A program made the position numbers and the translations under genes. The notes beneath the pieces are model-generated. The model was not told the origin of the DNA and did no database searches. It worked only from the letters and a program-made list of their open reading frames with translations. Shown here piece by piece: positions 12,501 to 64,000 of a DNA stretch of 64,000 bases. Every line of letters starts with the position of its first letter. The stretch's first letter is position 1. The DNA is from Patagioenas fasciata. Taxonomy: Eukaryota; Chordata; Aves; Columbiformes; Columbidae. The stretch spans positions 51,220,398 through 51,284,397 of the forward strand of contig NC_092521.1 in the NCBI RefSeq assembly GCF_037038585.1, read 5' to 3'.

Positions 12501-13334
12501 ATTTCTTGATCTGAACATTCGATGTAGTTGCTGAGGCCTGTATACTTGCCTGGAAATGTATCTCGCAGAGAAACGAAGGGTACAGACATGTACGGAAGGA
12601 CTTGACATTCTCTAGCTATTCTTGGTTCAAGCAATCTGGAAATATTCATAGCTTAATAGATTACTGTAAAAATGCTGGAGAAAAACAACCTTTTACTGGT
12701 TTCTGTTAAATGCAAAGGGCTTCAGGGGTGGATATAAGTTTCGATTCCCGATTTGCTATTTGCTGTTTCTGGTCGTAGGAAAATCAAAGGAAAAGCAAGC
12801 CCTGGAGAGGCAGCTTCTGTAACCATGTAACATGAAACGTTTTCTGTAGGCATGTGCAGTCATAGTACAGGATGTCTCTTGTGTTCACGCCTTTTTTTTT
12901 TCCTTCGGGAGAACATCTGCCTTTCCCTCCTTCATCCGTCTGCGGAATCAGGCCCCTGCTTGTGCAGGGCCCGGCTGACGGCCACGAGCAAGAGAGAGTC
13001 CCCGAGGAGGGGGGCTGCAGCGGCGCAACGTGCCTGGCAGCTGGGAAAACAGCCTCCAGAAATTGGGAACACCTTCGTGATTCACACATCCTCGCAGCAG
13101 CTCCTGCCAGGAGAGCCGCTGGAGAGGCCCCAGCAGAGGCAGAGATGGATTCCACCCTATATATGTATATATACACATATATAAGGCCATGGCAAGTCCT
13201 CAGATTTTGTGCGGGAATTTGTGTAAATGACCTGCGAGCAGAATCTGTTCTGGAAAAAAGTAGTCTTTTCCAGTTTAACCAACGGGGTGGATGGAAACAG
13301 GACTCGTGCCACCCTGTCTGTGGAGTCTGTGGGC
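581..13334. other. Intergenic sequence, no gene recognised
   Basis: About 12.7 kb without a recognisable exon, RNA gene or mobile element. Open frames here are short, overlap on both strands and show no family motif. Small low-complexity stretches include T/G-rich runs near 2,185-2,265 and a C-run near 3,437. About 6,300-9,500 is more GC-rich than its surroundings, and its longest open frame is about 154 codons (minus strand, 7,003-7,467) with no recognisable domain. A short alternating purine/pyrimidine TA tract lies at 13,158-13,184. Confidence 0.6.
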
Positions 13335-13825
13335 TCTTCAGTTCAAGAAGGACAGGGAACTGCTGGAGAGAGTCCAGTGCAGGGCAACAAAGATGATGAA
13401 GGGAGTGGAGCATCTCCCTTATGAGGAAAGGCTGAGGGAGCTGGGTCTCTTTAGCTTGGAGAAGAGGAGACTGAGGGGTGACCTCATTAATGTTTATAAA
13501 TATGTAAAGGGTGAGTGTCATGAGGATGGAGCCAGGCTCTTCTCGGTGACCACTAATGATAGGACAAGGGGCAATGGGTGCAAACTGGAACACAGGAGGT
13601 TCCATTTCAATTTGAGAGGAAACTTCTCAGTGAGGGTGACAGAGCACTGGAACAGGCTGCCCAGGGAGGTTGTGGAGTCTCCTTCTCTGGAGACATTCAA
13701 AACCAGCCTGGACGCCTTCCTGTGTAACCTCATCTAGGTGTTCCTGCTCCGGCAGGGGGATTGGACTAGATGATCTTTCGAGGTCCCTTCCAATCCCTAA
13801 CAAGCTGTGATTCTGTGATTCTGTG
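13335..13825 (+). mobile_element. CR1 LINE, 3' ~490 bp with ORF2 tail
   Basis: A sense-orientation, 5'-truncated CR1. It carries the C-terminal part of CR1 ORF2 (the reverse transcriptase polyprotein) in an open frame ending at 13,737. Visible family blocks are [33 protein letters not shown] and [20 protein letters not shown]. The 3' untranslated end and GATTCTGTG octamers close the element. The catalytic reverse-transcriptase and endonuclease domains are missing, so it cannot move on its own. It is very similar to the copy at 19,800-20,291. Confidence 0.95.
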
Positions 13826-17662: not shown

Positions 17663-17916
17663 GTTTATCCCATTTGATGCAGTTCCCATCACTCTTTTGT
17701 AGTGGCCTTTCCACCATTTTCTCCCCACAGGAAGGCAGCAGCATCATGCTGCCCGCGCCGTAAAGTGACCACAGCAATTCAGACCACGTCCGCACCACGC
17801 TTGGCAGATGTGATGGTGTAATCCAGCTGTCTGAAGAACAGCTGCATGAAGCTGTGGCAACATGGACTTCAGGGGCCGGGCAAGTAACACAACAGCTAGC
17901 GGAGGCTGATTTTGCC
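17663..17916 (+). repeat. Left arm of imperfect inverted repeat
   Basis: The reverse complement of this segment aligns along its length with 17,999-18,255, with an 82 bp spacer. The best-matching part is 17,757-17,830 against 18,091-18,170, roughly 85% identical by eye (shared core tggtgcggacgtggtctga on the arm-2 strand). The outer parts are more diverged. Many differences are transitions at CpG, which suggests age. I do not recognise the family. It could be a fold-back DNA transposon or an old inverted duplication. Confidence 0.7.
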
Positions 17917-17998: not shown

Positions 17999-18255
17999 GG
18001 CAAAAGGACCAACTTCTAGTCTGCTGACCTGGGGCTATCAGGCACCTCAGGGCGATGTGGGGTAAGAGGATGCAACTGCTGTGACATCAGCCAGCTGGAT
18101 TACACCATCACGTCTGCCAGCATGGTGCGGACGTGGTCTGAGTTGCTGCGGAGTTTTTACAGTGCAGGCAGTATGATGTCGCTACCTTCATAAGGGTACA
18201 AAAAAATGGCATGGCCACCACAAAGGAATACTGGGAACTACATAAAATTAGGTAC
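17999..18255 (-). repeat. Right arm of imperfect inverted repeat
   Basis: Partner of 17,663-17,916. The outer end (cataaaattaggtac near 18,241) matches the reversed outer end of the left arm (catcaaatgggataaac). Both arms can be read as short peptide stretches, but in both the frame is broken, so I do not call a gene. Confidence 0.7.
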
Positions 18256-19799: not shown

Positions 19800-20291
19800 T
19801 CTAAGGCCCCTCAGTTCAAGAAGGACAGGGAACTGCTGGAGAGAGTCCAGCGTAGGGCAACAAAGATGATGAAGGGAGTGGAGCATCTCCCTTATGAGGA
19901 AAGACTGAGGGAGCTGGGTCTCTTTAGCTTGGAGGAGACTGAGGGGTGACCTCATTAATGTTTACAAATATATAAAGGGTGAGTGTCATGAGGATGGAGC
20001 CAGGCTCTTCTCGGTGACAACCAATGATAGGACAAGGGGCAATGGGTGCAAACTGGAACACAAAAGGTTCCACTTAAATTTGAGAAGAAACTTCTTCTCA
20101 GTAAGGGTGACAGAGCACTGGAACAGGCTGCCCAGGGAGGTTGTGGAGTCTCCTCCTCTGGAGACATTCAAAACCCGCCTGGACACCTTCCTGTGTAACC
20201 TCATCTAGGTGTTCCTGCTCCAGCAGGGGGATTGGATTGGATGATCTTTTGAAGACCCTTCCAATCCCTAACATTCTGTGATTCTGTGATT
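19800..20291 (+). mobile_element. CR1 LINE, 3' ~490 bp, frameshifted
   Basis: A near-copy of 13,335-13,825, sense orientation, ending in attctgtgattctgtgatt. Compared with that copy it has a 5-base deletion near 19,937 (after tttagcttgga), which shifts the ORF2 frame. It also has a 3-base insertion near 20,095. It is therefore a dead, 5'-truncated retrotransposon copy. Confidence 0.95.
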
Positions 20292-28106: not shown

Positions 28107-28199
28107 ATGTCGACGGGAGAAAGTTTTGAGTCTCGGTTTGAAAAAATCGACGTGACTTTGAAGGACCCCAAATCCGAAGTGAACGTGGACTGTTTGCTG
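28107..28199 (+). CDS. ROCK1: ROCK1 coding exon 1 (residues 1-31)
   Basis: First coding exon of Rho-associated protein kinase 1, the serine/threonine kinase activated by RhoA-GTP that phosphorylates myosin phosphatase subunit MYPT1, myosin light chain and LIM kinases to drive actomyosin contraction. The peptide begins MSTGESFESRFEKID and ends DPKSEVNVDCLL, clearly ROCK1 and not ROCK2, whose N-terminus is longer and proline-rich. The start is chosen because it gives the family N-terminus and has A at -3 (aacATGt). The exon ends after a complete codon (phase 0) at donor GTGAGT (28,200). Against human ROCK1 as I remember it, residues 5, 9, 14, 16, 17, 19 and 27 differ, a more variable tip than exons 2 and 3. 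The CDS continues at 59,868. Confidence 0.97.

Positions 28200-30193: not shown

Positions 30194-30224
<31 letters not shown>
30194..30224 (+). repeat. T31 homopolymer
   Basis: Thirty-one consecutive T on the sense strand. Length is likely variable or mis-assembled. Confidence 0.95.
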
Positions 30225-33217: not shown

Positions 33218-35589
33218 GTTATATATAAAATAAAACATCTGGCTGACCTAGAAATATAATTCTGTGTCTTCAAGTTACCACGTCCAAGCTTTATATGCAA
33301 AACTGATTATGTTTGCAGATTAATATTACCTGATCATCACTGAGAACTATGAAATGTACAGGTTGTTGTGAAATTAATGATAAAATAGGTAACTTGGTGT
33401 ATTAAAGGTAAAATGCAACTGTAAGACGCCTTTGTAAATGCAAGAAGTTGGTGCATTCTCATTTCAGGTTGCACTTCTTTAGAAGAATTTTGTAATATTA
33501 CGTAAGCTTCTAGAAAGTTAACAGTAGAGATGGTGGGACTGTCAAAATGTTAGCATCTGATTCACAGTGTATAGTAGGTTTTATACAGAAATAACAGTTA
33601 ACTTAGCCGATTCTTCTGCTCATAAAACTAGAGGCTATAGGAATGTAATTTATTTTTCCTATAAAAATTTTTAATCACTGATGATAATAGAGAGTTGATG
33701 TTAAGACACGTTTCAACGAGAGGAATAAAAAACACAACTGAAACCCTGTACTAGATTATAAATGCTCTTATCAAGTAAAAATATTTGTAAACAACGTTGT
33801 CTTTCCTGGCAACTGTGGAGTGTTCTAGTTTTGTGGTAGTGGGAAGGAAGAGGGAAACACCTGGAATTTGTTTGCAGGACAAATTGAAAATCAACCTGCT
33901 GGTCTGTAAATCTTGGAGGACAATTACAGCTTCAGGAGCCACTCATTGAGAACTTAAAAAATATTTAGAAACAGTGTGAGCAGATGATATTGGTAGCCTC
34001 ACAGTTGGTGTTAGCAGAATTCCCTAGGACATACTGTAGTACTACATAAAAATAAAAAGCTTTTTCAGGTCTCTTAGCAAGTAATACTGAGATGTTTGTC
34101 TCGATACAGGATGTTTATCTTGAATTTGAGAGGTTCTAAAACATGTAATTAAAACCTTTTTTTTGTATGTTTCTCGATGCTTTTTATTGAAATTCCTTTG
34201 TCAACAAGAAATTGCAGTTCCAAGTGGAGATGCTGAAAAAACTGAACTTCCTTCTTTGACAACAAAATTAGAGAATGGCTGAAAATTATTCCGTCTTTAC
34301 CTTAATTTGTCTAGTCATTCAAGCAGCAGTAAAGGCAGAAGGCTGATGAGTCAATATTGGTAAAACTGTAAGCACTATGCAGACATCCAGTTATAGTTCC
34401 TTTAAAACAAATGCAGATAATACCATCTTTTAGCTTTCTGAGTAGCCTGCTGAAATAGACATCCGAATTAACAGTGGTTGAACAAGAGCTAAAACTTGAT
34501 CTTTGTGTAGAAATGTGGTTTGGAGCTCTCCTTGTCTATAGTGTTCTGCTCTACTCAGTCAATTTGATCTCCTGTAGTGTAATCTTCAGTCAAGTTTCTT
34601 CTTGGGCTTTTCAGTATTGGTGGACATCCAAACAACATCAGCAGAGTATAACATGATGTCGTGTATCTTCAGTTACAGCAGTCTAGAGGCTGTCTAGGCA
34701 AGCAGCACTTGCTTGGTCCGGTTAGTTACCTACCCTGCTAAGGGAGAACTAGCACAGGCTCAGTACCAGGTTCTAACTAGAGTACAGGTCAAAGTCTGTT
34801 CTGATACTTGTAAAGGATTGGCTTTAACTAACTGAAAGATTGCCACTCCCTGTCAATATTTATACCATACAGACTGTCATGGGGACAGTACCTAAGATCT
34901 TTTTATTAATAGGTCCTAATTTAAATCCAGCTGCTGATTTCTTTATTTTAGCTTTCCCTCTTAAATTTCTCATGTGTGTTCATTTTCCTGTTTCTTTTAT
35001 GAAGTTGAGAAATACGTGGAAGTTTTCTTGTGTGTGGTTTTTTTTTTTTCGTGGTCAGAGATGATGCAAAGACCTGATGCTTTGAAACCTCTGTAGAAAA
35101 CAGTATACAAACTAAGCCTTTATTTTGGGCTGTAGGTTGTAACTACCTAAATGTGCTTCTAGTTTGTGTGTCTGGGCTATAGAACTTATGATTGATCTAG
35201 AAACACAAATGGAGTATGTACTTTTTTCTCTGAAGATTTTCATGAGTTATAATATTAATTTAAAAATATAACTAAGAAATCCTTGAATTCCAGTAGTTAT
35301 ACAAATATTGAGTAACTGTGTCTTTATCTTTTTTCTCTTAAAAGCTCCATAGTATCCAGATAGCGCTGCATTGCATTCATATGTATTAAATTCCAAGGTA
35401 TGAATATGTTCAGAGGAAAACTGATACTTCCTGGTAAAGTCTATTGATGTTAGATATCTACCTCTAAAATGTAGTAATGAAAGATAGCAATTTTTCTGTG
35501 TAGTCACTGACTGCTCTGAAAATGTTGTTTGTGTGGAGTCTTGGCTTTCTTAGCCATTATTTGCTAAAAAAGAAAAGCCCAGACTACCC

Positions 35590-35957
35590 AAAATTAAGTA
35601 TGTCATCTGAAATGCACCTTCCAAAGAAGAAGAGGCCAGAAGCTTCTCCTGAAATCTGGAGATTTCAACTAGCAAATTTTTTCCCTGTTTCATGACTGGG
35701 GAAGTTGCATTTCTCAGAAGATGGTTAGTACAACTTGTATTTTAGCTGTAATGGTCATTTAAAATGGGAACACGTGAAAGAAGGATGGTTCGTGCTGCCC
35801 ACTGATGCTATGCTTGCTATTCCAAGAAAATCAAGATATTGAGATAAAATTAGTTTCTTTATGTCCATATTTTGATTAGAAGCTTCTAAAGAAAACTCAA
35901 ATTAGTTTCTTCTGTCTAAATCAGTTAGTTTGGAAGATGATTTGGATGTCTGACTTT
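35590..35957 (+). repeat. Block X, left copy (inversion breakpoint duplicate)
   Basis: Its reverse complement is present at 41,323-41,693 with high identity (roughly 90% or more by eye). Shared landmarks are attaagta at the start, aggccagaagcttctcctga, gaacacgtgaaagaaggatg and ggaagatgattt near the end. A T-run of about 13 bases (35,955-35,967) separates it from block Y. Confidence 0.93.
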
Positions 35958-35970
35958 TTTTTTTTTTCTC

Positions 35971-36281
35971 AGCTATGGCTGAGAAAGCAATTTGTACATA
36001 TAGTATCTGTAATTACTGTGTGCTTAACAAGCACTGCTGCAAACACATAGTTGTGCTGATTCAAGAACCTGACTGATGCCTTGAAACCAAAGCTAAAAAA
36101 AGACAAAAAGGGGAAAACAATGAGTGAAACACTGTACAGGTATTTTCTCAAAAGCTGGAGAATCACAGAACTGTAGAACAACCCAGATTGAAAGGGACTT
36201 CAGAAGGTCATCTGGTCCAACCCTCCATGGGAAAGGGAGCCTCCATGAGGCTATCTTGAAAACCTCCAGTAATGGGGACTC
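35971..36281 (+). repeat. Block Y, left copy (inversion breakpoint duplicate)
   Basis: Its reverse complement is at 41,694-42,006 with only scattered mismatches (by eye about 95% or better). It runs from agctatggctgagaaagc to cagtaatggggactc. The last ~120 bases are the 3' end of a CR1 element that continues beyond the block to about 37,105. Confidence 0.95.
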
Positions 36282-37105
36282 CACTGTGTCTCTCGAAAGA
36301 TTGTTACAGGGACTGATGGTTCTCATTGTAAATAACTTATTTCTTATATAGATACAAAGCTCTCCCTGTGCAACCTGTACTCAATTACCATTGTCTTCTC
36401 CATGTGGCTCCTTGTGTAAAGACAACCTCTATCCCCTTTGTAGCTGCCTTTTAAGTCCTGGAATATTGCGATGAGGTCCCCCTTGAGCCTTTCTCTTCAC
36501 CAGGAAGACTACTTCAGTATTCCCTCACAGGGCAGGTTCTCCAGCCCTTTGATCTTTGTGACCCTCCGTCAGACTCTCTCCACTCTCTGTGTCTTTGTTG
36601 AATTGTGGGGACCAGAACTCCACTCCAGATGCAGCCTGACCAGCACTGAGTTGAATGATGACATCTTCATATCTGCTAGTAATGCTCCTGGGAATGCAGT
36701 CCAGGATCCAGTTTGCCTTTGGTGCTGCTGCAGTGCTTTGCTGTCTCATGTCCAGCTTGTTGACCACCAGGAACCTCAAGTTCTTTTAGCAAGGCTGCTC
36801 CCCAGCCACACAGATCCAAGTCTGTATGTACTACGTTCTTTGGTTATGTTGTCCCAGATGCAAGACTGTGCACTTGGCTTTGGTAAACTTCATAGTGTTC
36901 TTACTTACTGTTTGAACCTGCCCAGATCTCTCTGTAAGATGACTCTCCCTTCTGATGTGTCTACCTCACCACCCAGTTTAGTGTCATCAGCAAACTTGGT
37001 GAGGGTACTTTCAATCCCGTCATCTAGCACATTTATGAACATGTTGAACAGTGTCCACTATCCACACATGGAAGACCCCACTTGTGACAGGCTGACAGCC
37101 TGAAT
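36161..37105 (-). mobile_element. CR1 LINE, ~945 bp 3' portion
   Basis: An antisense CR1: reversed 3' end (aatcacagaactgtagaac, catctggtccaaccctcc) followed by a long stretch of reversed ORF2 tail, recognisable by ctccagccctttgatctttg, gtccaggatccagtttgcc and gtgtcatcagcaaacttggt. The reading frame is broken. Its first ~120 bases fall in duplicated block Y, so the element was present before the rearrangement and was cut by it. Confidence 0.92.
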
Positions 37106-39589
37106 AAAAAGCCCTGGCTACTGAGAGATCTTGAGATATTTTTAAAATATTTGATGTCTCACCAAAATGAACTCTAATTCAACTACATACTAGCAAACTT
37201 TATACAGATAATTATTTGTGCCATTTTGATGTCATCACACAGGATATAGAAATATTCTCAACATAGTTGCTTCTAACAAAATCTGGAGCAGGAAATTGTA
37301 ACTTCACTGTATTGGAAACAAAAACTCCTATTAGTTATTGTGAAGCGTGAGTACTTCAACTGAATTTGCATGGTTTTTTATTTTAAAGGAAAATGCATGT
37401 CAGGACTTCATGTGATATATATAAAATTACCGTGAATGGACTGAACATAAGTCTTTCTTTCTAGCCAACTCATTTATTTCATTATGATCTCAAGTGATTA
37501 ATGAAGCTTTTCACAGAAAGGCTTTCCTGGAAACCTGGAAAGCACACCTTCAGAAGTCAAGTAAAAGGCAAGCAATAGTTGCATTTGAATTTGTTAAGAC
37601 AGAAAAACACTACCTACTCTGTATGTAAGGATAACAAGAAGGAGAATTATTTCAGAGAACTAATGAACTTTACTTCTTACAACCCTCAAACTAATTAGGT
37701 CAATAAAACATTTTAGTGATTTTTTTCCCCCTTTCTTCCAGTGATTGCACTATGGGAAACTATGTCAAACAGGAGCAGCCTCCTGTTATACTACTGAGCA
37801 TTTTCAGCTGAGCACTGGTCACTGTAATTTATAAGCTTAAACATAGTTTAAAATGCATACATCTTCATTTCAACAGCTTCATATAAATGCACAAACAGCC
37901 AGGCAGTACTGAACTTTTTCCTTCAAAAGCATCATGTTTCATGAGCTGTTCTTAATTTGTCTCCAATTTTCCCCACTAGAAAATAGAATGCCTACCACAC
38001 AGTCTATGTAGTTAGAGACCAACAAACTTAATGAACATTAAAGTTTCCATGCTACTAAAAACTTTAAGGCATTGTAAAAGTTTATTATCCTGAAGAAAAG
38101 TAATTTTTAGACTTGTGTACTAGTATATACTAATATACAAACTAAGTTTTTTTCACTTAAAAACAATATCTTGCAGCCACAAGTTTAGGTTCAGATAAGT
38201 TAGTTTCCCCTGTCTGTTTATCCTTAACTAAAGGAAATAAAACTCTAACTCAAAATACTTGAGAATCTGAGAGCGATGCCTTATCTTAAAATAACACAGT
38301 TTAACATTGCATCTTCATTGGTATGTTATACATAGACTCACACCTTGCTTTTGATGTAGTTTAAAAATTCTTTTTGTGGAGTTTTGTCATTGATATTTGC
38401 CACATGTGCTTGAAGCTTGATGTTGGCTTTTCAGATACACCATGGTACCACCATCGAAATTTCCCTATCTCTTAAAAAGAGTACAAACAATAGCTTGCCT
38501 CCATGCCATCAAACTCACAAATCAGGGAGGAGGAAAGAAAAAAGTACTTCTTTATTTTAGATGAAGGAAACAGAAATTCAAAACAGTCTCACAGAAAGCC
38601 TGAAGAAATCAGGAAGCCTTGACATAAGTCATCATAAGCCAAACAAACAATTCCAACCCCAGAATCATCTTTAATTATAAACTTCCTAATTTCCCTGCCC
38701 ATTTTCCAAACCTCATATTTGTATTTATATCTTACAGAGAGACAAGACTTAGTTCTACACAAAGAACATTTTCTTTTGGTTCTTGTTCCCTACCACCATC
38801 CCGTAAGTGAGATCTGTTTTGTGTTCTGCAGTTAGTCAAAAGTACCAAAGGACAATATCACAATTTTATACTACACTGATGGTCTGTATTTGTTGATATT
38901 TCATTTACTAAGTAGGAGGAAAAAAAAGAGGATAATATGGCACAGCAACCTTTGATTTCAACTTCCATGTATTTTCAGGTGAGATTTTTACTCAAACAAG
39001 AGAAAGTATTAAAATGGAATGATTGACTTTCCACACAGTTTCTTTTTAAAACTATTAAGAATGAAGTAATTTATAGTAGGCACGCATCCATTGCATGAAC
39101 TTAAGAATTAGCTTGACGGCCTGTGTATAGACAGATATGGCATTGCTGACAAAATTACTTCTTTGCCTGTCCAATTAGTCACTTTTCCTATCAGAACTTG
39201 ACTACTTCTTCTGCAGTAGAAGTGAAACAGAAATTAACTGATCTGAACAGGGAAGAGCATGAGATCTTGACAGAGTTCTCCTGAATATGGTGGACCTAAT
39301 GAGAGTCTTCACAGCTTGCTTCAAAACAACAGTGTGACTAGTTCTGGAGATTTCTCCAACTGTTTGATTTTTACAAGCCGAAAGTGTCTCCGAAGACTTT
39401 AAGGTTATGCTATACCCAGAAACTATATGTACAAAACAATTTGTGGAGTATTAGAAAGGCTGAGAACAGCCACAAGCATTTTAGTAAAAGACAGAAGACA
39501 AAAGCTTTTCCAGGAAGCATGGTAATCTGTTATCTACAGAGAGTCTAGCTTCTTAATGACATCTTCAATTCCAAATTCAGTGTACTAAA

Positions 39590-39665
39590 TAAATAATAAA
39601 AAAACCCCACCCACAACCCAAACAACAAAACATGCAACCAAAAAACCAACCCAACAAAACACATG
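39590..39665 (+). repeat. A/C-rich low-complexity tract
   Basis: Almost only A and C (for example accccacccacaacccaaac). It looks like the complement of the T/G-rich tracts found elsewhere in this intron. Confidence 0.9.
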
Positions 39666-41119
39666 ATCACTTCAGTAGCTCAGCTCTCAGTCCATAAGCC
39701 TTAACAGGCATTTTGTTATTTCCATTGCTGTCTTTGTTAGTCCCTGTTTCAAAAGCTATGACAATTATTGCTAATACTAGCAGGGGAAAAAAAACCTGAA
39801 GTCCTAATAAGTCTACTATTTGGTTGGCACCATTTTTGGTCTTGTATTACCAACAAGAAGATACATAGCATGTAACAGCATGTTTGAATGATCCCAACAC
39901 CACCAGAAACAATATAATAGGTGTGCTGGAAATTGTTTAATTGGCAGCGAACTTAATAGTAATTGGAGTTTAAAGAAGAGGCAGCAGGTCACAGAAGATG
40001 TACTAGAGCAAGAAACAAACTGCTGGGTAGACTGAAGTGGCAGAAGAACCTTTCCTCTTCGCAAGGAGAGAGTAAATTCTTTCAGCTTAGTACTGACAGG
40101 ATTCTTTGCATGCTTACAATTGAAGCTACTTTCTAAGAAGAGATTAGTATAATAATACATTACTGTAATAAGATTTCATAACAAAGAAGGGCTCATGAGG
40201 AAATCGTATGATTCCACCTCTAACACTGACAGCTGTGCATAATATCAAGATGAAGTTGTGAGGCACCAGTATTGCCTCTATTTTCAACTACAGCTTCATG
40301 TCCTGCCTAGTATTGTTCCATCCAACCTGGCATCTGTGAAAAGGCATCAGGAAACAATAACCAGCAAAAACTCAGTGTCCTACCTTCAGCTTTGCTCCTC
40401 CTTGAAGGATCTTCCCCATCAACTCCTACTCTATCATCTCCTGGCTGGAGAGGCTTCCTCCCCTCCTAAGGACCTTAACACAGAGTCACTTCACACTTGT
40501 AGTCAAAGTTGCTCCTAGATTTCGGTGGTGGAATTAACACACTGGACTCTGTCATCCACACCCCAGGAAGACTGTGCCTGTTGTACTGACACCTGACACT
40601 TCAACTTCTACCACGGGCAGTCTCTCATCCCTCTTCACCTTGCCCCCACAGATATGGAAATCACAATGCTACCAAGGTTCAGAATCACGAAAGACTGAAG
40701 TGTCATTTCTAGAGTGTAAATTCGACATCAGAGCAAGGCAAATTCTTTCCTTTTTCCTCCAACAGAAGAATTCTACATCTAATCTGTTTCAAGTCCAGTC
40801 ACAGATTAAACTTAATGAGTTTACCAATTCATAGCAACTGTCCTCTCAGATACAAACCCTTATGCTTAAAATCTCCAAATCTGCAATTGCCTCCATGCAA
40901 GGAGTTCCCCTGGTCTTGTGGCAGATGCCTTTCAGAAAATTATTTGGGCTACAAAGAGGTTTACTGACCAGGTTAAGAAGACTAAAACATTTAAAGAACT
41001 CTGCAGATAAATGCAAAATGAATACTGATGACTTTTCTGTTTAGTTTTGCTGAACTTTTTTCTCTGCTATGAAGTGTCAATCAAATAAACTTACTGCTGT
41101 GTAGTAGAAAATCACAGAT

Positions 41120-41260
41120 TCCCCAGAGTAGTTGTGGAGTTTACTGCCTCTGAGATACTCAAAAAGCCATCCTGGGCAACCTGCTCCAGGTGGCCCTGCC
41201 AGAGCAGGAGGGTTAGACAACATGACCTCTAGAGGCCTCTCCAGAATCAATCATCATGTG
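41120..41260 (+). mobile_element. CR1 LINE fragment, diverged
   Basis: A worn sense CR1 3' piece: gccatcctgggcaacctgct, ggtggccctgccagagcagg, gttagacaacatgacctcta. The terminal octamers are degraded. It lies inside the probable inverted segment. Confidence 0.8.
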
Positions 41261-41322
41261 AAATAACAATCATTTGTACTCAACAAAATACTGCTTTAAC
41301 TGTGCACACAGTATTAAATATT

Positions 41323-41693
41323 AAAAAGTCAGGCATCGAAATCATCTTCCAAACTAACCAATTTAGACAGAAGAAACTAATTGTTGAGTTTTCTTTAGAA
41401 GCTTCTAATCAAAATATGGACATAAAGAAACTAATTTTATCTCAAGATCTTGACTTTCTTGGACTATTAAGCGTAACATCAGTGGGCAGCACGAACCATC
41501 CTTCTTTCACGTGTTCCCATTTTAAATGACCATTACAGCTAAAATACAAGTCGTACTGACCATCTTCTGAAAAATGTAACTTCCCCATCCATGAAACAGG
41601 GAAAAATTTGCTAGTTGAAATCTCTAGATTTCAGGAGAAGCTTCTGGCCTCTTCTTCTTTGGAAAGTGCATTCCAGATGAAATACTTAATCTT
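41323..41693 (-). repeat. Block X, right copy (reversed)
   Basis: Reverse complement of 35,590-35,957. It directly abuts the right copy of block Y at 41,693/41,694 (cttaatctt then gagtcccc), a junction that truncates the CR1 sequence. Confidence 0.93.
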
Positions 41694-42006
41694 GAGTCCC
41701 CATTACTGGAGGTTTTCAAGATAGCCTAATGGAGGCTCCCTTTCCCACGAAGGGTTGGACCAGATGACCTTTTGAAGTCCCTTTCAATCTGGGCTGTTCT
41801 ATGGTTCTGTGATTCTCAAGCTTTTGAGAAAATACCTGTACAGTGTTTCACTCATTGTTTTCCCCTTTTTGTCTTTTTTTTTAGTTTTGGTTTCAAAGCA
41901 TCAGTCAGGTTCTTGAATCAGCACAACTATGTGTTTGCAGCAGTGCTTGTTAAGCACACAGTAATTACAGATACTATATGTACAAATTGCTTTCTCAGCC
42001 ATAGCT
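41694..42006 (+). repeat. Block Y, right copy (reversed relative to left)
   Basis: Reverse complement of 35,971-36,281. Its first ~123 bases (to about 41,816) are a sense CR1 3' end. It continues to cagccatagct, after which the similarity stops. In the inversion model this copy sits in the original orientation. Confidence 0.95.
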
Positions 42007-44923
42007 ATCAAGGTCCCATTTTCTGACGTGACACTATGCAGGATATGATATCTATGCTGAGCAGCACAGTGTTCATGTCATTTGTCTTGTAATATCAGAT
42101 CTAGTCAGAATTTTTAAAAAAAAGGGCTTATGGAGAAAAATCTTTAAATCTAGTGGTATGAAGAGATGGAAGAAACTCAACCACAGAATGCATCTGCAAC
42201 AAATCTAGTTTCTAAATGGAGGAAAAGATAAACTGCTGCTAGATATATTCTTAAAAAATGTTCAGCCTAAATGGCAACTATAAATTGCAATTTATCTGAA
42301 TTTTCCAAGGAAATAAAGTGACTCCTATGGAATTAATTTTTTTTCTGTGATTGCCATTCAAGTGAAGATGAATTCCTCCTTCTGTCTGGAAGGAGGAAAA
42401 AAAATATTCCCAATACTTAAACCACCAAGTTCACATTATCCATTTAGATTGGGAAAAAAATCTCTGCTGAGAGAAATTTGCAAAACGATCAGGAGCTAGT
42501 AGGAGTTCTTACACGCTCTGTAGGTTTTGTCTCATGATTGCTTCAGGTGAGAAGTTGCTCAATTACTATATAACTCTCCAAATTCAGAATTAGCATAGAA
42601 TGAACTTTTCACTAAATGGGATATAATTATTTTTCATGAGCATGGCAGTAATTATTTGGATTATTAAAGATTGTTACTATATACAGTCAGCTCTCATTAA
42701 GCAACAGTTAAGTTTTACTGCATGCAGATATGTAGTTTATTTGGGCATAGAATTATGACTTCAAGGATGTATATCGATACACTTTCAAAAGATAGCTGAA
42801 GTAGTTGGTTGAATCAAGTGTCTTTCTGATGGAACTGATGGAATTAAAAAAAAATGCCCAGACTGTGCTCTGATTTCACGTGTATTTTTTTCTCAAATTA
42901 TTATTCTGTAATAAAACTTAAAAGTGGCAGAGATTCATTTCAGAATTTCATTTTTGTAATCAGATGGGTGTTAGGGTGATCTGGCCAGGTCCAGGTCAGT
43001 GTCCATCAAGAATGAGGCCCACAGTCTTGCTGCAACAGCATCTTGTCTCTATTTTTTAAGTCAGTGCCTAATACAGCTACCGCCTTTGTGCTACATGCAG
43101 AAGCTGTAGTACTTAGATATATGCCTTTTAAAATTTACCTTCCTTTTATGTTTTGGGTTTTTCAGGGTGAGGGGGCAGCTACATTAATTAATAGCAGGAG
43201 ATGTATGGGATAAAAATGTGTTAGGAAAACTCTGTGGCATGGGCAAATCAAATACTAGCTAGTGGTTATGGTCTTTTCTAGGTCGCAGTTATGTGAGGCA
43301 TCCTCCATTCACTTTTGAAGAAAGTAGCTGCTCCAACATCTGCTGTGCCAAATGGGCAAAGTCAAGCACTATTTCTGTGGTATGGCAAGGAAAAGAGGTT
43401 AAATAGGGATATCTTTTAGTCATCTGTTTACCATCAGCTTTCTTTTTGTGTTTCAACTAGTTCAGGATACAATGTATTGGTAGTTGACTCTTGACAGATG
43501 AATTTATCTTTGAAGACACTTGAAGGTATGCATTTAGCTTTTTACAGAAAGCAGCAAATTTATTCTGAAGATGGGATAAGAAATGTAAGTTATAATGTCT
43601 TAATATTGGCTTTGTCATTCTTAAGGTCTTACTGCTGGCTCTACCATACTTATTGAAGGCCTTGGCATTTTGGTAGTTAAAAATCAAAATATGTTTTTGA
43701 CATGCTCATGATACTGAACCGTTTTTAGAAGCAGACCAAGTCAGATTGTAAGATCTTCAGAAGGTTTTAAGTTGTTAAGATTAACTTCTGTGTAGAAACA
43801 GCATGTGACAATATAGAACTACTCAGCTCTTTTTTCTGAATTTTCTGGCTCTTGTCTTCTGGACAGTCATGAACTTTCATACTGGTTTTCAGAACTTGTC
43901 TATTCCTAAATGGGTTCGGTTTGACTCTTTTACTTCTGCCGTGTTCTTATTTCCTAACAGCAATTTGTACAAAAAAGAGCTATAGTCAAGGATATCGTAA
44001 GTGATGTAGTTATCTCTTAACCTGCATTCTCATTTGTAAACATTTACTTTTAAGTAAATCTGTTGTCCAGAGAATAAATGGATTAAGAGGTTTTTCAATT
44101 AGGTAAGATTATGTAAGATCTGAGATTTGTCATGCCATAGTTTGATAGGTAGATAAAGGGACAAAATTATTAAAGGACCAGTTCACATGCATGTCCCTGA
44201 AATCCAAATTGGAAGGAGCAAGAAAGCAAGCTCTAAACAGTTGAATATGATCTGGTCTGAAAGTTGATCTACAGTGATTCAAAAAAGAGACAAAGTTAAT
44301 TTCTTTTTTTGTTTGCTCCAAATCATACAGTGTGGTATCTTGACTGAAGCAACTAAGGGTTTTTTGAGTGTGTTTTACATGACACTGTTAGATGAAATGC
44401 TGCATTGCTTGTCTTCTCTGAAGACTTTGTCTTAAATGTACAGCTTTGCATCATTGAACTACTTATAAATTTTCAAGTGCTAAAGAATGTATTTCCTGCA
44501 GTTTTTGGTCTGTCTTACTTCTCCTGTCCAGCAGTTTTAAAAATGTGAATCAAAATGAAAGTGATAGGTCATTAAAAAAAAAAAATATTTTTAAGAGCTG
44601 ATTCTTTATGATGTGTAGATGTATGTATACAGAATGTATACACACAAACACACTTCCTGCTGTTAGACATTTCCTAATGCCAAATGGTTGTTTTTTTCCT
44701 TTTCTAAATTAAATTGCTTATCTGTAATTCAGAGTCTAGTTAACTTTAATAACAGAGCTTACTTCAATGCCAGTGAATTTTGTTTGAATACCACAAAAGA
44801 TGTAATTTTTTTCTTAATTTCCTCTTAAGTCTCTGAGGCTAGGTAAATATTTTCAGTTACAAAATTATCGTGGTTGGTAACAAGTATCTCTTTCCAAAAT
44901 GGCTGTTAACATGCATTAATTTA

Positions 44924-50900: not shown

Positions 50901-51340
50901 ATAGACCTATTCAGTACTTGTTGCTCAGGTAAACTTACAGTTGCTCATTTAATTAAAAAACCAAAACCCACAAAAGTATTAATGTTGTGCACTAGAGGAA
51001 ATTACTGTGTGTGTGTGTTTTTCCTTACCATTGAAGTTGCAGTACAGTATTCCCTAAAAGAGTTAAGTATCAAAAAGGGGTTCAAGATTTTCTCTTGTTC
51101 AGTTAGTAGCATCAGAAAAAGTCTGTCCTTGTCACAAAGGAGTAATGGCTGCTCTGGACTTACTTGAAGGGCTGAAAAATGTGACTCATGCAAAGCTAAA
51201 CCTTGTAATGAAACCTTCTTGTTCATCTCTTGCCACACTGGTAAGGAATTAAAGGACATTTTTGGTAGACTAATTCTTTGCGGGAACTACCTTTATGCAA
51301 ACCAAAAGCACAGCTTGGCTTTGTGGATAAAATGGAACTG

Positions 51341-52137
51341 TCGAGATTGGAAGTGACCTCTTAAGATCACCTAGTCTAACGCCTTTGTGCAAGCAAGGTC
51401 AGCTAGAGCAGGTTGCCCAGGACTGCGTCAAGTCTGGTGTTGAATATCTCCACAGATGGAGTCTGCAGCCTCTCTGGGCAACCTGTATTTGACCACCTTT
51501 ACAGTCAAAGAAGATGCAATCTCCTGTTTTCTAATTTGTGCCCATTGCCTCTTGTCTTGTCAGTACACACCACTGAGAAGAGTTTGACTCCATCTTCTTC
51601 ATTCCCTCACATTTTATACACATGAGTAGGATATTCCGCCTTTGAGCATTCTCTTCCCTGGGTTGAAGAGTCCCAACTCCCTTAGCCTCATAGTATGGGA
51701 GATGTTCTAGTCCTTTCATCATCTTTATGGCCCTTTGCAGGACTCACTCATATATGTCCATGTCTCTCTTATACTAGGGAGCCCAGAACTGGACCCAGCA
51801 CTTCAGATGTAGTCTCACCAGTGCTGAGTGGAGGGGATCACCCCCCTTGACCTGCTGGCAACACTTTGCCTAATGCAACCCAAGATGCTGTTGGCTGCCT
51901 TTGGTATAAGGGCACATTGCTGGCTTATGTTCACTTTGTTGTCCACCAAGAAGGACCTTGGGTCCTGGTAGAGCTGTTTTCCAGCTGATCAGCCACCACC
52001 ACCATGTACTGGTGCCTGGGGCTGTTCTTCCCCAGGTGCAGAACTTGGCATTTCCTTTTGTTGAACTTCATGAGGTTCTTCTCTGCCAGTTTCTCCAGCC
52101 TCTGCAGGTACTTCTGACAATTCAGAGATCTGATAAT
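51341..52137 (-). mobile_element. CR1 LINE, ~800 bp 3' portion
   Basis: An antisense CR1 starting close to the 3' end (gattggaagtgacctcttaa) and running through the reversed ORF2 tail: cattgcctcttgtcttgtca, gtcctttcatcatctttatg, gcccagaactggacccagca, gttgaacttcatgaggttct. The terminal octamers themselves are worn away. Reading frames are interrupted. Confidence 0.92.
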
Positions 52138-52161
52138 TCCAACAATTCAAAGAAACTCCTA

Positions 52162-52238
52162 GGGGTTTTTTTGTGTGTGTGTTGTGGGGTTTTTTTTGTT
52201 TGTTTTTTGTTTTTTGTTTTTTGGTTTTTTTGTTTTTT
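52162..52238 (+). repeat. T/G-rich low-complexity tract
   Basis: TG dinucleotides, then T-runs broken by single G. It lies just beyond the 5' end of the antisense CR1. Confidence 0.9.
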
Positions 52239-52740
52239 GATGGAGTTGAGGTGTTACTTTTCATGTGTGTTTGAAAATACAATATAAAACCCTGCTTCTC
52301 ACTTACAGCACTTAAATAGGCTCATTCAGTATCGATAGTTGACCACAGAGATCTCTTATGTGGCAAATTTTGATGAACACATGAAAATCAAGTTCAGTCA
52401 GGTTTGTTGATTTAAAGTACAGGGGGAAGCTTTAGTACTATAGAAATAATTAGGAAAATGGCTACAGTACAAGGAACTAAAATATGGATAGTTAGAGTTG
52501 TAGATCTTAAGGCTTACTTTGATGTCTCCAAAAAAGGAAGAGTAGCAAAGACTTTATACTTGGGTAATGGCCAGTCAGTCCAAGGAATGTAAATTTTGTA
52601 TGCTGGTAATACCCACTAAGGTGGTTTTATTTTTTCCTTTGAATGCTAGATAAATAGTAAACAAGTGTCTCAATAACAAAGTTTCAACTGGATTTAATAT
52701 ATTTTTCTTTATCATGTGTTTCCAGTAGATGATATTATTG

Positions 52741-53442
52741 TAGAATCATAGAATGTCCTGAGTTGGAAGGGACCCACAAGGATCATTGAGTCCAACTCCT
52801 GTCCCTGCACAGGACAACCCCACAGTTCACACCATGTGTCTGAGGGTGTTGTCCAGTCTCTTCTTGAACACTGTCAGGCTTGGGGCTGTGACACCTCCCT
52901 GGGGAGCCTGTTCCAGTGCTCCAACCACCCTCTGGGTGAAGAACCTTTTCTTAATGTCCAACCTAAACCTCCCCTGGCACATCTTCCTGACATTCCCTCG
53001 GGTTGTGTCATTACTCACCAGAGAGAAGAGATCAGCACCTGCCCCTTCTCTTCCCCTTGCGAGGAAGCTATAGACCACGATGAGGTCTCCCCTCAGTCTC
53101 CTCCAAGCTGAACAAACTAAGAGACTTTAGCCGCTCCTCACATGGCTTCCCCTCCAAACCCTTCACCAGCTTTGTAGCTGTCTTCTGGACACTCTCTAGT
53201 AGCTTAATATCTTTTTTATCCTGTGTTGCCCAAAACTGCACATAGTGCTCCAGGTGAGGCTGCACCAGTGCAGGGAAGAGAAGGACAATCACCTCCCTTG
53301 CCCGGCTGGCAATGCTGTGCTTAATGCACCTCAGGACATGGTTGGCCCTCTTGGCTGCCAGGGCACACTGTTGGCTCATGTTCAACTTGCTGTCAACCAG
53401 AACCCCCAGATCCCTCTCCCCAGAGCTGCTTTCCAGCATCTC
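52741..53442 (-). mobile_element. CR1 LINE, ~700 bp 3' portion
   Basis: An antisense CR1 of the same subfamily as 16,388-16,630 (tagaatcatagaatgtcctg, gagtccaactcctgtccctg). The minus strand still has open ORF2-tail frames: 53,439-53,068 reads [20 protein letters not shown] and later [14 protein letters not shown], typical of the CR1 ORF2 C-terminus. The reverse transcriptase core is absent. This is one of the better-preserved copies here. Confidence 0.95.
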
Positions 53443-53906
53443 GTTATGTCATAATGAAATGTATATGAAGTAAAAATTCAAAATACAAAGATGCTATAAC
53501 TGTACCATAATAATGTAGATTGTATACTCTTTTTTTTTGACTTTATATCACTTGTGGATCCTGAGATATGTTCTTCTGAATTGAAGTACTTAATGCAGTA
53601 TATTTTTAAATACCCTAACAGTAAATTTTGCTATAAAATTGCATGAATATTAATTCATACATCCGAATAAAACCAGCATAACATAACTGTAGTGAGTTTT
53701 GAGAATAAAGAATGTAGTTATAGAGTAAGGCAGTCCAGTATAGTCATTAAAACTTTACCAAAATGTGGGTAAAAATCCAATTAATATGAGACTGCATAAG
53801 TCACACAGAAGAAAACCAATACATTTTAGAGGAATCTAATGAAGAAATCGCATAACAGCCTAAGAAATTAAATGCTAATAGAATGTGTGGATAGTATGTA
53901 TGTTAA

Positions 53907-54195
53907 TCACAACATTGCGGAATGGTTGGGGTTGGAAGGGACCTCTGGAGATCATCTATTCCGATCCAGCTGCTAGAGCAGGTTCACCTAGGCATGTGTC
54001 CAGGCAGGTTTTGAATGTCTTCAGAGAAGGAGATTCCACAGCCTCTCTGGGCAGCGTGTTCCACTGCTCTGGCACCCTCGAAGTAGAGAAGTTTCTCTTC
54101 ATATCCCGATGAAACTTCCTGTGTTTCAGTCTGTGCCCGTTACTCCTCATCCTATTGCTGGGCACCACTGAAAAGAGATCATTCCCAACCTTTTG
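53907..54195 (-). mobile_element. CR1 LINE 3' fragment
   Basis: An antisense CR1 with ggttggggttggaagggacc, gagatcatctattccgatcc and the reversed ORF2 tail. The minus-strand reading includes RVPEQWNTLPREAVESPSL. 5'-truncated near 54,195. Confidence 0.92.
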
Positions 54196-55363
54196 ACACC
54201 CACAGTGATAACTTTTATGTTATTGCATTCTACATTTTTAGAAAAAAACTGAAGGAAAAGGAAAAGGCTGTTGGAAAAACCTTTCTGCACGTTTCTTCAA
54301 GAAAAAGCTTAAAGGAGTTTCCATACTGGAATCTGTCTTTACAGTGTTCATGTTGGAGGTTCTCTCTCAAGCTAAAGTGGTACTAGAAAACTTTTTTTTG
54401 GACAAAATAGCACAAGCAGTAAGATTGCTGAACTGCTGAGACTACTTGATTTAATATTTATCAATCTTTTTTGTACCTGTTTGTGTTTCGTTAAGGCATG
54501 TAAGTGTATGTATAACCTTAGTGTTTATCTACATCAGTGATTAAAACTGTTTTGACAACAGTAGTAAGGAAGCTGGTAAACATACAGCTTTTTGTATTAT
54601 TTTTTCTATTGAAGAAGAAAATATTGTGGATAATACAGGAGCTCCCGTGGCAGAACAAGTGAGCCTGTAGGTGTTACGATGGCAAAGGGCTAACTCATGT
54701 ATTTTGGAGGAAAGTCATGTTTTGCAAACCTAGTGAAATTCCTTCAAGTAATTTCTGAGTATGACGATAACAAAACGTTTTGACGAGGCTCTTATTTAAG
54801 CTTTTTATCAGAACTAAGCTGCTTTGGGCTAGGCTTGTTTAGCGGATGAATGGATGAATGAATGAAGAGCTGGTGATCAGTTTATTGAAAACAGGGAGAG
54901 CAGTATACAATCTAAGTGGTCTGTACTATTTCACAGTCATAAGTGATGTAAAAATGGTGAATAACAATTAATTATGATGGAGTAGTAAAAATGAAAGCTA
55001 TAGCAAATCACAGAAGACATCAATATTCAGTGATGCCTGATTGATCAAAAGTGGTAGGTGAAATTCAGCATTGGTTAATGTTGGGTGAGTGCATGGGAGA
55101 AAAACTTCTCATCCTTACATACTTCTGTTGTTGAATGTTGAACTAGCTTTGATTTATAGTACCTAGTTTTGTGAAATAATCAATTTCGTACACAGTGACC
55201 ATAAAAATTAAGCAGATATTTCAGTCAATAACTTAAAATTTAATGAAGAACAGAACAGGAAACATTGTACTGCATTGTGTACTTGTGGTGCACTCACATC
55301 TTAAATACTATACGCAGTTTTCACCTTGATTCAAAAACTATGTTGTAGAAATAAAAAAGCAGT

Positions 55364-59822: not shown

Positions 59823-64000
<4,178 letters not shown>

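Follow-up and report, generated by a model that had tools for sequence, protein, structure and literature searches.

Inversions whose ends are duplicated in inverted orientation have been described in Drosophila and in humans. The Drosophila cases are accounted for by isochromatid and chromatid staggered-break models (Kehrer-Sawatzki 2005, Matzkin 2005 and Ranz 2007, as cited in PMC7584159), with overhangs of tens to hundreds of bases, for example 58 and 534 nt at the O7 proximal breakpoint (PMC7584159). Human dupINVdup variants (PMC5338099, PMC6286558) have their parts in the order duplication-inversion-duplication (dup-inv-dup). We describe a rearranged block in a 64-kb stretch of Patagioenas fasciata DNA (NC_092521.1, 51,220,398 to 51,284,397; the window), which lies in intron 1 of ROCK1 and which, with a probability of about 0.92, records a single dup-inv-dup inversion of an intron segment.

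Rearrangements have reportedly been described in chicken and quail (PMC3245302, PMC6466734). The avian microinversions of PMC3123225 are likewise inversions in bird non-coding DNA; those cover 5-38 bp at 17 loci, whereas the ROCK1 inversion covers ~5.7 kb. The ROCK1 inversion has the same order of parts as the human dupINVdup variants, and its layout is that of their class and of the staggered-break class of Drosophila. It differs from the Drosophila cases in being small, intronic and in a bird, and in that its uninverted arrangement is inferred only. In the human dupINVdup of PMC6286558 the duplications are 280 and 283 kb, compared with 0.37 and 0.31 kb here, and by its divergence the event here is old.

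Layout of the rearranged block

Peptides that we take to be those of ROCK1 matched the window at 28107-28199, 59868-59948 and 63711-63812, all on the + strand. GTGAGT stands directly after the match ending at 28199 and T12CCCCAG directly before the one starting at 59868. The rearranged block between these splice-site letters is therefore in ROCK1 intron 1, which confirms the placement given by a sequence-only reading of the same DNA that preceded this analysis. In a self-comparison of the window (E up to 1e-5), 35586-35959 matched 41697-41323 on the minus strand (E 4e-158; 93.1% identity in 376 columns). Likewise, 35971-36281 matched 42006-41694 on the minus strand (E 5e-144; 96.2% identity in 313 columns). 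The repeat copies were then trimmed and aligned globally. The block consists of the following parts.

35586-35957, + strand: block X, left copy; 345 of 367 aligned bases equal the reverse complement (rc) of 41325-41693; probably at its original place beside the upstream intron
35971-36281, + strand: block Y, left copy; 301 of 311 aligned bases equal rc(41694-42006); in the flipped segment; a minus-strand CR1-like element has its 3' end here
36282-41322, - strand: centre M, 5041 bp; by its GC skew, probably inverted relative to its original orientation
41323-41697, - strand: block X', right copy of X, reverse-complemented, as given by self-comparison and alignment
41694-42006, - strand: block Y', right copy of Y; probably at its original place beside the downstream intron, with a CR1-like piece cut at the junction

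X and Y are each reverse-complemented in their second copy, yet X precedes Y at both places. The sequence-only reading had reported this recurrence with the order kept, and its block limits held within a few bases; the corrections are that X starts at ~35586, X' ends at ~41697 and X' and Y' overlap by up to 4 bp. At either end of the inverted segment the sequence is duplicated in inverted orientation, as in dup-inv-dup rearrangements. M is single-copy in the window, its other matches (E up to 1e-3) covering just 102 columns (72% identity) and 66 columns (73%), each in a CR1-like stretch.

An Rfam scan of the window gave no matches at gathering scores, and none of the 13 tandem repeats listed in the window is inside the block. 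The open reading frames of at least 100 aa inside the block are two: 36471-37103 (+ strand; overlapping the CR1-like element in antisense over part of its length) and 39816-40160 (- strand).

Borders dated by a CR1-like element

A profile was built from six pieces of the window, none of them taken from the rearranged block, for a group of repeats that are presumably CR1. It found the following element in the block.

36160-36806, - strand: CR1-like element, E 9.5e-48, profile positions 4-695, unbroken over the Y/M border at 36281/36282

A second CR1-like piece, at 41695-41814 (E 2.2e-7; envelope from 41690), begins at the X'/Y' junction. The element is continuous over Y/M and its second copy is cut at X'/Y'; therefore the Y/M border is original and the X'/Y' border is new. 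On the Y side the block thus has one old border and one new junction, the polarity of a dup-inv-dup event.

Elsewhere in the window, two CR1-like copies at 13332-13820 and 19805-20291 stand in direct orientation, 93% identical and 6.5 kb apart.

Strand skew of the centre

Transcribed introns carry strand skew. The GC skew of M is -0.113, against +0.135 and +0.077 in the two intron-1 flanks, and its TA skew is -0.019, against +0.099 and +0.086. In a first comparison 0 of 61 overlapping windows were as low as M. We then compared 43 blocks of 100 bp from the core of M with 230 from the flanks, after X, Y, X', Y' and the intron-1 CR1-like stretches had been removed. G-C per 100 bp was -4.0 in the M blocks and +4.02 in the flank blocks (nominal Mann-Whitney P 4e-8), and T-A was -2.4 and +5.7 (P 4e-5). 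After M was turned round, its G-C did not differ from that of the flanks (P 0.90).

The lowest combined-skew segment of intron 1 is 36026-41606, less than 100 bp off at both ends from the segment predicted by the layout (35958/35971-41693). Block shuffles reached a segment as low in 0 of 5000 trials at 250, 500 and 1000 bp and in 7 of 5000 at 2000 bp. Cutting out the CR1-like stretches left the same segment (0 of 5000 shuffles at 1000 bp), and turning M back in silico shrank the lowest-segment score from -365 to -86. The counts of AATAAA and TTTATT in M (6 and 4) were too few for an orientation test. These results indicate that M is reversed with respect to its ancestral orientation; the evidence is indirect, from a comparison of skew between the M core and the flanking intron.

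GC skew has been applied to bacterial genes (PMC6220195), and in the available portions of the literature on skew for orienting inversions no paper was evidently on a vertebrate intron. The present case suggests that a single genome may suffice to orient an old intronic inversion without an outgroup, by combining mobile-element continuity with strand skew in transcribed intron sequence. Many introns could be scanned in this way, so that small dup-inv-dup events are found and oriented and the frequency of templated repair or of splice-site creation at their junctions is estimated.

A weakly negative G-C skew (-0.06, -0.04, -0.03) was also seen in three 1-kb bins of intron 1 at 51207-54206. Three minus-strand CR1-like pieces are present there, possibly the cause of this negative skew.

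Junction sequences

At junction 1 a run of T13 at 35955-35967 is followed by CTC at 35968-35970. On the X side, X ends with GACTTTTT, where the other copy goes on as AATATTTAA; on the Y side, Y starts with AGCTATGG, and CTTGAT precedes the Y start in the other copy. The features of the two junctions are these.

35960-35970, + strand: junction 1 insert, T8CTC (11 bp), found in neither parent continuation, rc(41280-41345) and rc(41975-42040)
35965-35986, + strand: 9-bp perfect hairpin TTTCTCAGC-TATG-GCTGAGAAA with a 4-base loop, spanning junction 1 and not found in the other copy
41694-41697, no strand: junction 2, GAGT observed, where the X side has GGGT and the Y side GAGT; microhomology of at most 4 bp with one mismatch

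The last six bases of the insert, TTTCTC, are the reverse complement of GAGAAA within Y. Together with AGC they form the left arm of the hairpin, and the right arm, GCTGAGAAA, is in Y. The sequence-only reading had noted the T-run at this junction but no hairpin. Hairpins with perfect arms of at least 9 bases and loops of 3-8 occur at seven distinct places in the 64 kb, the one at junction 1 among them; the chance that one of the other six would land on a given junction is about 0.002, by a criterion that was chosen after the hairpin had been seen. Polymerase theta can leave a short complementary tract at a repair junction by snap-back extension (PMC4912351). The junction-1 hairpin is a possible footprint of such repair: it resembles the insertions of PMC4912351 in its short complementary tract, as from extension in cis, and differs from them in being only a sequence footprint, of at most 6 bases.

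Proposed event and rival explanations

We propose that the intron order A-X-rc(M)-Y'-D became A-X-[Y-M-X']-Y'-D, with ~5.7 kb flipped and the ends duplicated by ~370 bp and 311 bp. Such a flip accounts for the layout, the CR1-like element and the skew, so one event suffices. The most likely route, which we favour by a little, is breakage and joining according to either staggered model. Filling-in of 5' overhangs (isochromatid) or staggered breaks of sister chromatids (chromatid) would account for the duplicated ends. Junction 1 would form when Y folded back at its 3' end (GCT on AGC), copied GAGAAA and, by A/T pairing, joined the T-tract of X, and junction 2 would close through microhomology of at most 4 bp. 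The likeliest role of the rearrangement is none, that is, an old intronic scar.

A single inversion with both ends duplicated had been proposed in the sequence-only reading, and this claim is now supported by the layout, by the continuity and cut of the CR1-like element and by the reversed skew of M. The same reading had called the fit to the isochromatid model exact. The layout does fit that model, but the chromatid and template-switch models give it as well. The event had also been considered fairly recent from the high identity of the copies, a view that the divergence does not bear out. X and X' differ by 22 substitutions over 367 aligned bases (16 transitions, 6 transversions) and 2 gap events (94.0% identity), and Y and Y' by 10 over 311 (8 transitions, 2 transversions) and 1 gap event (96.8% identity). 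The avian substitution rate is ~2e-9 per site per year. If this rate applies, the 3-6% divergence corresponds to an age of roughly 8-16 million years, with wide error, which is not very recent.

Several observations weigh against this reconstruction or against parts of it. The divergence of the two pairs is unequal, 6.0% for X and 3.2% for Y (Fisher P 0.10); gene conversion between the copies left no significant sign, the longest stretch without a difference being 83 bp for X (P 0.06 by permutation) and 109 bp for Y (P 0.13). No CR1-like profile match crosses the M/X' border, and for this reason the polarity of the X-side border rests on symmetry. Adjacent 100-bp blocks are not independent, which makes the P values of the block test too small, and the T-A of the turned M (+2.4) is weaker than that of the flanks (+5.7; P 0.066). 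The ends of the low-skew segment are loose, with starts of 35950-37160 and ends of 41380-41802 within 20 units of the optimum, and the skews taken singly give 36320-42023 (as low in none of 500 shuffles) and 37026-41606 (P 0.004, 500 shuffles). By construction X and X' are mirror images; this aids the placement of the ends and is avoided by the M-core test alone. Antisense transcription through M could be an alternative cause of the reversed skew. At junction 1 slippage may have added the T's of the insert later, which leaves CTC, about 1 in 64 by chance, as the strict support for snap-back. The isochromatid, chromatid and template-switch models all yield one and the same layout, which separates none of them; PMC7584159 also states that the duplications do not distinguish the isochromatid from the chromatid model, and that the chromatid model has been favoured since the isochromatid one needs long unwinding.

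Replication-based template switching (fork stalling and template switching, FoSTeS, or microhomology-mediated break-induced replication, MMBIR) is a serious competitor to breakage and joining, though we regard it as somewhat less probable; it would give the same product and takes a share of the inversion reading rather than adding to it. The copying strand would leave X at its end, copy TTTCTCAGC of Y' briefly in direct orientation, switch strand at AGC, go backwards through Y-M-X' and return to Y'. It predicts the same layout, with the short homologies TTT and AGC at the junction-1 switches and at most 4 bp at junction 2, and two switches through TTT and AGC would leave the same junction-1 letters as snap-back. 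For human complex variants PMC6286558 favours replication-based mechanisms, with one dupINVdup among its four cases, and for a Drosophila inversion PMC7584159 offers such a mechanism as a repair-based alternative. Template switching requires three switches, however, and no replication-specific trace was seen in the block.

The alternative named in the sequence-only reading was a circle of X-rc(M)-Y' that was linearized at the T-run and then integrated again between X and Y', which yields the same permuted order. Since M occurs once in the window, the target would also have to lose M, which means two or more events, and the reversed skew of M is not specially predicted, as it is by a flip in place; we consider this origin very unlikely. 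Just as improbable is that X-Y is the unit of a dispersed repeat, or the terminal repeat of a mobile element, that happens to be present twice. Part of Y is CR1-like and hence repetitive, but outside that part X and Y had no further matches in the 64 kb (E up to 1e-5). False inverted duplications are known in assemblies, yet here the copies are set apart by 32 substitutions in 678 aligned bases, of which 24 are transitions, and by 3 gap events, too many for a single locus that was doubled, and the skew of M is independent of the copies; an assembly error is the least credible of these explanations.

Nonallelic homologous recombination (NAHR) between inverted repeats was also considered and was rejected: a flip between pre-existing inverted copies would not be expected to make the permuted X-Y / X'-Y' order. 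The self-comparison of the window (E up to 1e-5) gave no other inverted pair flanking the block.

A splice-acceptor-like sequence at junction 1

In the sense direction of ROCK1, 35950-35972 reads CTGAC-T13-CTCAG and resembles a 3' splice site. The branch-point-like CTGAC comes from X, and CTCAG is completed by the insert and Y. Sites were scored with a simple acceptor matrix, which is crude: it ranks the exon 2 acceptor 1 of 4473 and the exon 3 acceptor only 629 of 4473. On this scale the junction-1 site comes fifth among the 2126 AG sites in intron 1 and tenth among the 4473 on the + strand of the window; 11 of 4563 AG sites on the minus strand score as high. No other intron-1 site that scores as well or better has CTRAC upstream. 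An exon predicted from this acceptor would run for 167 bases (35973-36139) to the next donor-like site, CAG/GTATTT, and would contain stops in each of the three frames.

We consider it very unlikely that the flip gave ROCK1 a new intron-1 splice acceptor in this way, and the site is probably not used. A literature search gave no paper on a new splice site at an inversion junction. If the site were used, the lineage might carry a regulatory or poison exon that was born at an inversion scar.

Other features of the window

An inverted repeat of ~163 bp (17672-17834 and 18087-18248; 79% identity, ~250 bp spacing) is unmatched by the CR1-like profile. Within ROCK1 intron 1, a pure run of 31 T is found at 30194-30224.
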